This document shows, piece by piece, positions 34,655 to 37,322 of a stretch of DNA of 43,689 nucleotides. A program made the position numbers and the translations under genes. The stretch is from Bdellovibrionota bacterium. Lineage in GTDB: Bacteria > Bdellovibrionota > Bdellovibrionia > Bdellovibrionales > JAEYZS01. Location: NCBI GenBank assembly GCA_963169515.1, contig CAUJEF010000039.1, positions 1 to 43,689 of the forward strand, read 5' to 3'. Below the pieces are notes generated by a model. The model had not been told where the DNA came from, ran no database searches, and was given only the letters and a program-made list of their open reading frames with translations. The first letter of the stretch is position 1, and each line of letters opens with the position of its first letter.

Positions 34655-35016
34655 ATTAACTGGTTTTTCGTAAGCCGGATTCTGTCTTGGAAGTCAATTT
34701 CGATCAAAATCAACTGCCGAGATAATCATTCCTCTGGGATGAATATTACTATTCACCTCATGCGATCTTACCCGAGAGTATCGTGCGGGCCGCACACTCT
34801 CCTATTTGATCTTGCTCCACGCTGAGTTTGGCTGTTTTCACTCCAGCGGCTCCCCTGAAGGCTCCCGTTCCCGCCTTCAAGATCAATGCCCTGGACATTC
34901 TTTCTGTTCCACTGTTCCTCACCTTGCGGCGGAGGGGCGTTACCCCCAGTGTTGCCCTATTGGAGTCCGGACTTTCCTCTTTAGTTTCCTAAAGCGATCA
35001 TCTAAAAAACCACTGA
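34655..35016 (-). ncRNA. rnpB: RNase P RNA (bacterial type A-like)
   Basis: Minus strand contains GAGGAAAGTCCGGACTCC (34962-34979), and ACAGAATCCGGCTTAC near the 3' end; P1 candidate UGGUUUUU/AAAAACCA; P3 CUUUAG-GAAA-CUAAAG. Confidence 0.93.
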
Positions 35017-35170: not shown

Positions 35171-35260
35171 ATGAATCCGAGACAATTTGCAATTTTAGTT
35201 TTTCTCTTTATTGGAATGATTTTCGTATATCACCAAATTCAAGCAATGGTGAGTTGGTAA
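35171..35260 (+). CDS. Putative 29-aa membrane microprotein
   Basis: MNPRQFAILVFLFIGMIFVYHQIQAMVSW*, hydrophobic TM-like; fills the gap between rnpB and the convergent RNase HI-GNAT stop (35261). Below the ORF-track length cutoff. Confidence 0.4.
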   Translation: MNPRQFAILVFLFIGMIFVYHQIQAMVSW

Positions 35261-36283
35261 TCAGATCTCTAAAGTCATCAAAACAATGTCCGTATATTGG
35301 CCATTGTATTTACTAGCATTTTTTTGAACTCCATCAATCCTAAACCCGAATTTTCTATAAAGCGAAATCGCAGCGATATTTGTTCCAAAAACAGATAAAT
35401 TGATTTGTTCAAAACCCTTTTCTTCTGCTTGCGCAATACACGCTTCCAAAAGTTGAGTGCCGACACCCTGTCCGCGAAATTCCTCTAATACCCCCATCCC
35501 CAACCATCCACGATGAGAGAATCTGGGTTCTCCCCCGCGAGTAATATCTGCCCAACCGACAACTCTATTTTTGGCTTTGGCGAGGATAAAAACACCGTTT
35601 GTTGTGATAACTTTTTTAAAAAAATCTAGGCTTTGCTCGCGTGGCGGAGATTTTACAAAACAAATATGGGTCTCTTCCCGTGCAACGGTATCTAAAACAT
35701 GCCGATATTCATCCAAATACTCTTCTTCCATATTAACAACTTCAACGTCAATCGCCTCTGGCTTAACGGTCAATGCTGGCGAACTCTCAAAATTAAATGT
35801 CGCCTGCTCTAGCTCCCCTTGGGACGCGCTCATTTTGAACTCCATCGGCTCTTTTCCCGTGTCCAATGCTTTGTTTGCAAGGCGATCGGCTTCTTTATTT
35901 TTTTCTCTGCGAATGTGTTCCAATTTTACGGCTTTAAATTTTTTTATAAGACTTTTTGCCTCATGAAACAGCGGCAAGATTGTAGCAGACTTTACTTTAT
36001 ATTCGCCCTTAAGTTGTTTAATCAAAAATTCACTGTCACTTTTCAGGTGTACATGAGTTACATCATTTTTCAGAGCCTTTCTTAACCCCTCAAGGACAGC
36101 AAAATATTCTGCAAAATTATTTGTTTGATCGCCTATTGCCTCACAAATGGTGTCGATTTCATCGCCCTTGCTGTTTGTAAAGACGACACCTATGGATGCA
36201 GGCCCCGGATTTCCACGACTTGCACCGTCGGTATACATAACAACACTTTTCAACCATTTCCCCACCGTCAACTCCAGCCACAT
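35261..36283 (-). CDS. RNase HI - GNAT acetyltransferase fusion protein
   Basis: N-term YTDGASRGNPGPAS / NNFAEY / LKSDSEFLIKQL / NKEADRLANKAL (RNase HI D-E-D-D); C-term FRGQGVGTQLLEACIAQAEEKGFEQINLSVFGTNIAAISLYRKFGF (GNAT). Confidence 0.9.
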   Translation of the reverse strand: MWLELTVGKWLKSVVMYTDGASRGNPGPASIGVVFTNSKGDEIDTICEAIGDQTNNFAEYFAVLEGLRKALKNDVTHVHLKSDSEFLIKQLKGEYKVKSATILPLFHEAKSLIKKFKAVKLEHIRREKNKEADRLANKALDTGKEPMEFKMSASQGELEQATFNFESSPALTVKPEAIDVEVVNMEEEYLDEYRHVLDTVAREETHICFVKSPPREQSLDFFKKVITTNGVFILAKAKNRVVGWADITRGGEPRFSHRGWLGMGVLEEFRGQGVGTQLLEACIAQAEEKGFEQINLSVFGTNIAAISLYRKFGFRIDGVQKNASKYNGQYTDIVLMTLEI

Positions 36284-36290
36284 TTCAATA

Positions 36291-37322
36291 TTAAATTACC
36301 TGCTCGATGCTTTCTATGCCACCAATATTAACTGCAATCTTGAAGAATTTAGCAGTAACTTCGCCAGGTTGTCTCCTAAAAAAGATTTTTGTATCGCTTT
36401 TCGAAAGAGAAATGTTTGCGTATGCGTATAGCTCTTGCGGCTCTGACCTGATTACTTTTTGCAGGTTGAATTTCAACACCTCTTTTATTCCGCATGGATA
36501 ATCATTTTTTAAGTAAGACCTTAGATTAAATTTTCTTCTGAAATAGACAACGTCATGCTTTGCTCCATAACCATGGATTGCTCTGGCGACTCGTCCCGGT
36601 AACTGGCCTACGTCAATCACCCGAAACCAATCATGAAAAGTCCCAAATTCTCGATTCCTTTCGTTAAGAATGCGTATACGGTCAGGACCGAAGCGTCTGG
36701 CAAATTTAGTAATAAACGTAACAGGACCGTGAGGCAATTTGTTATATACATCCACTGGAATCTCTGCCTGCCTTTGAACAAAGTCTTTTTCTTGTTGCTC
36801 ACCCATACCTTTTGTTGCCACCATTTGAGCAAGATGTTGATCCAGCTCTTTAATACCAGGTAACTTTAGGGCGCCGTCTCTTCGAATAATGTTCTGGGCC
36901 AGCTGAACGACTAAATCCATCTCTGCAAGCCTTTGATTGGGCAAAGAAAAGTATTCTTCAAAAAGAGCGGCTAAATGACGGGCCTGGGTAAGCACTTCGT
37001 TTTTTATTTCGATCAACGGGTGCCCCTTTAAAATATGTATTTGAATTTCATCTATAAGTCGTTGCAACAGCGAAATCTCATAAACTACATTTGATAAATT
37101 AACTTCATCTGCGGCCACAGTTGGCAGGCTGATTCGACATGAAAAATCAGAAAAAATTTCATTTTTTGTCCATGATTTAATTTTTAGATCGGTCGGAACA
37201 AATAAAAAGAGTTCCATATTTCCAGATATTTCGGAATTACTATACGATAACGATGACCTCAGCTCAAGCGTTGTCGGCTGCCGATTATCACTTTGAGCAT
37301 TAAATAAGAGATCCAAATCCAT
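36291..37322 (-). CDS. Hypothetical protein, no recognised domain
   Basis: 343-aa ORF ending 8 bp upstream of the RNase HI-GNAT ORF, same strand. Confidence 0.65.
   Translation of the reverse strand: MDLDLLFNAQSDNRQPTTLELRSSLSYSNSEISGNMELFLFVPTDLKIKSWTKNEIFSDFSCRISLPTVAADEVNLSNVVYEISLLQRLIDEIQIHILKGHPLIEIKNEVLTQARHLAALFEEYFSLPNQRLAEMDLVVQLAQNIIRRDGALKLPGIKELDQHLAQMVATKGMGEQQEKDFVQRQAEIPVDVYNKLPHGPVTFITKFARRFGPDRIRILNERNREFGTFHDWFRVIDVGQLPGRVARAIHGYGAKHDVVYFRRKFNLRSYLKNDYPCGIKEVLKFNLQKVIRSEPQELYAYANISLSKSDTKIFFRRQPGEVTAKFFKIAVNIGGIESIEQVI

Follow-up and report, generated by a model that had tools for sequence, protein, structure and literature searches.

Does the single reading frame at this locus, in which a ribonuclease HI (RNase HI) domain is followed by a GNAT acetyltransferase domain, encode a genuine fusion protein, and do its two halves work together? 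RNase HI removes RNA from RNA-DNA hybrids. An earlier note, made from the letters of the window (the whole stretch of 43,689 nucleotides that was analysed), had suggested that the fusion could link R-loop processing to acetylation of a nucleic-acid-associated or aminoacyl substrate.

One reading frame with two enzyme domains

The RNase HI-GNAT frame is a real observation. The uninterrupted frame of 340 amino acids described in the earlier note, which named no strand, is present on the minus strand (Table 1). The order of RNase HI, linker and GNAT also held, but the linker spans about 35 residues rather than the ~50 first proposed. Judged from the sequence, the true start may be the GTG at codon 7 instead of M1, as this gives a better fit to the N-termini of relatives. 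An internal start at codon 151 is possible as well, and would yield a separate GNAT.

Table 1. Features of the RNase HI-GNAT locus, in positions of the window.
Feature	Position	Strand	Size or basis
Fusion ORF, RNase HI then GNAT	35261..36283	-	340 aa plus stop
RNase HI domain, residues 12-142	35858..36250	-	Pfam RVT_3/RNase_H, invariant residues, model pLDDT about 97
Linker, residues 143-177	35753..35857	-	between stand-alone RNase HI ends and stand-alone GNAT starts; low pLDDT; coding-like codon use
GNAT domain, about residues 178-338	35270..35752	-	Pfam Acetyltransf_1, alignment, 2ge3 match
Likelier start, GTG codon 7	36263..36265	-	GGAG six bases upstream; predicted from sequence
Possible internal start, ATG codon 151	35831..35833	-	GGAG six bases upstream; predicted from sequence
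rnpB, RNase P RNA class A	34656..35013	-	Rfam RF00010, 196 bits; anchors gene order

The N-terminal half matched the Pfam families RVT_3 (3.8e-26, 91.9 bits, residues 18-139; curated cut-off 21.6) and RNase_H (PF00075; 1.2e-15, 58.3 bits, residues 12-139; curated cut-off 25.8). The four catalytic acidic positions that had been reported as intact, D19 (TDG), E59 (AEY), D83 (SDS) and D133 (EAD), were all invariant in alignments of 13 and of 47 sequences. Moreover, this half kept each of the 25 positions that are invariant in 12 relatives, and its branch in the tree was of ordinary length (0.67). It is an RNase HI of the compact type, without a hybrid-binding domain, and the N-terminal space is too short for one. 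The closest solved structure by sequence was 3u3g (residues 13-142), which we take to be an LC11-type RNase H. In an AlphaFold2 model, a check proposed in the earlier note, the RNase HI domain was confidently predicted and the linker had low pLDDT, as for a disordered stretch; the run had zero alignment rows for the GNAT half, so that the low confidence there carries no meaning and the model is sound for RNase HI but uninformative for GNAT. A profile search of the host genome found one RNase HII, but no PF00075 or RNase HI-family match other than the fusion. For this reason, the N-terminal half would serve as the housekeeping RNase HI, presumably cleaving the RNA strand of RNA-DNA hybrids by a two-metal mechanism.

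The C-terminal half matched Acetyltransf_1 (PF00583; 3.3e-19, 69.7 bits, residues 206-314; curated cut-off 20.7) and carries an intact acetyl-CoA motif (R270-GQGVG) that agrees with the R/Q-x-x-G-x-G/A pattern, in line with the complete-looking GNAT domain with RGQGVGT that had been noticed before. Its closest solved structure by sequence was 2ge3 (residues 183-336), a 'probable acetyltransferase', presumably the Agrobacterium enzyme Atu2290. All substrate-defined NCBIfam equivalogs scored below their cut-offs, the best being ArsN1a (69.4 of 170 bits) and RimI (50.9 of 86.4 bits); hence, the domain appears to be of an ordinary type to which no substrate can be given by name. It would be an acetyltransferase for a small amine, an amino acid or a peptide, held on a flexible linker. 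A PADLOC search returned one weak match (PDC-M11A, 17 bits, 4.1e-4) over a generic GNAT stretch, and lent no support to a defence or toxin reading of the fusion.

Other families of the order contain stand-alone relatives of the GNAT (~40% identity), among them the closest; the two same-family genomes had no close GNAT at an E-value of 1e-12. The fused copy joins stand-alone GNATs of its order in a loose group (support 88/92), on a long branch of 2.5, which the tree program flags as long, so its exact placement is unsure. It differs at 11 of the 45 positions that are invariant in eight stand-alone relatives. The GNAT thus seems to be the less constrained half: its substrate may have changed, selection on it may have relaxed, or the searches may have missed closer members of its subfamily.

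These losses, set against a fully conserved RNase HI on an ordinary branch, could also mean that the GNAT has become an inactive passenger in decay, retained solely through the frame that it shares with RNase HI. We consider this unlikely: about 160 codons of it are free of stops, 34 of the 45 invariant positions and the acetyl-CoA motif are intact, and codon usage is coding-like.

Gene order and the join between the two halves

The host genome is a metagenome-assembled genome (MAG) of 2.38 Mb in 173 contigs, probably of the order Bdellovibrionales, with the fusion on contig 39. An assembly or base error could therefore have joined adjacent RNase HI and GNAT genes through the loss of a stop codon or frame break; the fusion is known from this one MAG only and is absent from every relative searched. 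The gene order argues against a chimera within the gene, because both flanks are as expected from the same-family relative G001. In the window the order is methyltransferase (+), esterase (+), rnpB (-), a micro-ORF (+) and RNase HI-GNAT (-); in G001 it is methyltransferase (+), rnpB (-), a micro-ORF (+), a 126-aa ORF (-) and a stand-alone RNase HI (-). A chimeric contig is thus unlikely, and was rejected.

Neither half shows a frame break, and the linker has an in-frame codon score (0.234 per codon) like those of the two domains (0.205 and 0.211). The other two linker frames contain three stops each, but the score of one of these frames (0.213) comes close. Furthermore, a run of 35 random codons has a chance of about 12% of containing no stop, so the open linker by itself is weak evidence. 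Overall, the in-frame joining looks real; a stop codon lost through an error at one base is possible in a MAG assembly, but we regard an assembly error of any kind as distinctly unlikely.

The same region yielded several other observations. RNase HI has rnpB close by in the window and in three other genomes (G001, G135 and G008), so that two genes of RNA processing form a conserved neighbourhood in this bacterial order. The micro-ORF between the fusion and rnpB has 29 codons (35171-35260, +) and encodes a peptide resembling a single membrane span, MNPRQFAILVFLFIGMIFVYHQIQAMVSW; its stop abuts that of the fusion. Similar peptides occur at the same position in G001 (L101, 5124-5264) and perhaps in L105, so that it is possibly a conserved microprotein. 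Seven bases upstream of the fusion lies a 343-aa ORF (36291-37322, -). Searches of Pfam, NCBIfam and PHROGs gave no match to it, and the loci of relatives that were compared have no counterpart.

Distribution of the fusion and possible coupling of its halves

No match spanning both domains was found in 40 relatives, 141 genomes of the order, 144 of the class or 369 of the phylum (sets that overlap); in all other phylum genomes searched, RNase HI and GNAT each stand alone. Outside the phylum we searched ~1,160 genomes in three groups. A second fusion was absent from the matches in 400 genomes (class of G369), 380 genomes (phylum of G370) and 384 genomes (phylum of G371), although the strict limit of 1e-37 used for the last two sets could have masked a more distant one. 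Plasmid, phage and viral collections gave no second case either, and a GNAT profile search of viral contigs returned zero matches. A literature search found no paper describing an RNase HI-GNAT fusion. The rarity of the architecture, suspected in the earlier note, was thus borne out by the 369 phylum genomes, about 1,160 others, plasmids, phages and viral contigs.

Candidates for a second fusion were rejected. A hit in the phage collection (H21) that seemed to run across both halves (query 105-336) is a lone GNAT ORF of 172 amino acids, and a match in Photobacterium that appeared to extend over the linker is a GNAT with an in-frame stop further upstream and no RNase HI. The long frames at the RNase HI of G022 (422 aa) and in L059 (398 aa) owe their length to open sequence on the N-terminal side and are not fusions to a GNAT.

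Could the two activities nevertheless be coupled, with hybrid binding by RNase HI placing the GNAT at the nucleoid or nascent RNA, where it would act on a nucleic-acid-bound target? Both domains sit on one chain with the acetyl-CoA motif intact, and the 11 changed GNAT positions could mean a new substrate. Yet the fusion is not recurrent, the RNase HI is of the compact type that lacks a hybrid-binding domain, and in the loci examined there was no neighbourhood link between the two families: none of the stand-alone GNAT relatives adjoins an RNase HI gene. In addition, the analogous RNase HI-CobC pair of actinobacteria is dissociable in vivo (PMC7466739). Functional coupling of this kind is therefore very improbable, and the suggested link of R-loop processing to acetylation finds no support, given that precedent and an ordinary, less constrained GNAT. 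Similarly improbable is a two-headed enzyme whose RNase HI would bring a GNAT with a new specialisation to hybrids or the nucleoid, to acetylate a nucleic-acid-bound target there.

Fusion as the preferred reading, and comparison with known systems

The locus is probably best explained as a lineage-specific gene fusion of RNase HI and GNAT with little or no functional coupling. The sequence itself shows the one open frame, the intact RNase HI catalytic residues, the intact acetyl-CoA motif and the conserved flanking order. Both same-family relatives have a stand-alone RNase HI gene; here, this gene of the rnpB neighbourhood would have gained a GNAT gene just downstream, after which the two genes would have merged into one reading frame. 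By analogy with known fusions, the two halves most likely work independently.

The RNase HI-phosphatase fusion of actinobacteria, named as a precedent in the earlier note, exists as RNase HI-CobC (PMC7466739). This protein of the Actinomycetales (RNase HI-CobC/acid phosphatase: Rv2228c, MSMEG_4305, SCO2299; NF005567) has the same plan of an N-terminal compact RNase HI, a linker and an unrelated C-terminal metabolic enzyme. The RNase HI of the fusion matches the N-terminal part of NF005567 (4.6e-37, residues 13-161 only), but the protein falls outside the family (128.2 of 326 bits), its C-terminal half being a GNAT and not a phosphoglycerate-mutase-type phosphatase. Moreover, RNase HI-CobC spans a whole order, whereas RNase HI-GNAT occurs in one genome. 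In Mycobacterium smegmatis, MSMEG_4305 without its CobC half had hardly any effect on growth, fitness or hybrid levels; the authors considered the fusion most probably fixed by drift (PMC7466739). In SCO2299, whose linker has about 120 residues, the two activities are independent, whereas in Rv2228c, with a linker of about 10, CobC influenced RNase activity in vitro (PMC7466739). The ~35-residue linker described here is intermediate, though nearer to that of Rv2228c, which makes some coupling possible.

The unfused relatives differ in other ways. The stand-alone RNases HI of the two same-family genomes (G001 and G002) are 55-57% identical to the fusion, and G001 shares the rnpB neighbourhood; both carry a short acidic tail (DDDFD) at the C-terminus, which is absent from the fusion, and neither adjoins a GNAT gene. 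The stand-alone GNATs of the order and Atu2290 are 34-41% identical over the whole domain. A 2007 survey of prokaryotic RNases H lists the RNase HI of Bdellovibrio bacteriovorus with a C-terminal hybrid-binding domain (PMC1950709), an arrangement that differs from that of the fusion.

In about 12 genomes of Coriobacteriia (L032, L192, L193 (=L024), L194, L195 (=L025), L196, L198, L205, L208, L209, L210 and L220), we found RNase HI fused in frame, through a variable linker, to QueD/PTPS (PF01242). TIGR03367 scored 100.6 and 103.1 bits on these proteins (cut-off 89.25), and a literature search with the terms tried gave no paper on the fusion. It shares its RNase HI type and domain order with RNase HI-GNAT, but the partner is a 6-carboxytetrahydropterin synthase. 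The recurrent RNase HI-QueD is a better-supported oddity than the singleton RNase HI-GNAT.

RNase HI-GNAT is thus the third, apparently independent, C-terminal fusion of an unrelated enzyme to a compact RNase HI, after CobC in Actinomycetales and QueD in Coriobacteriia. With three cases it becomes a testable question whether the activities are coupled or whether RNase HI merely tolerates C-terminal passengers, and we lean towards the latter.
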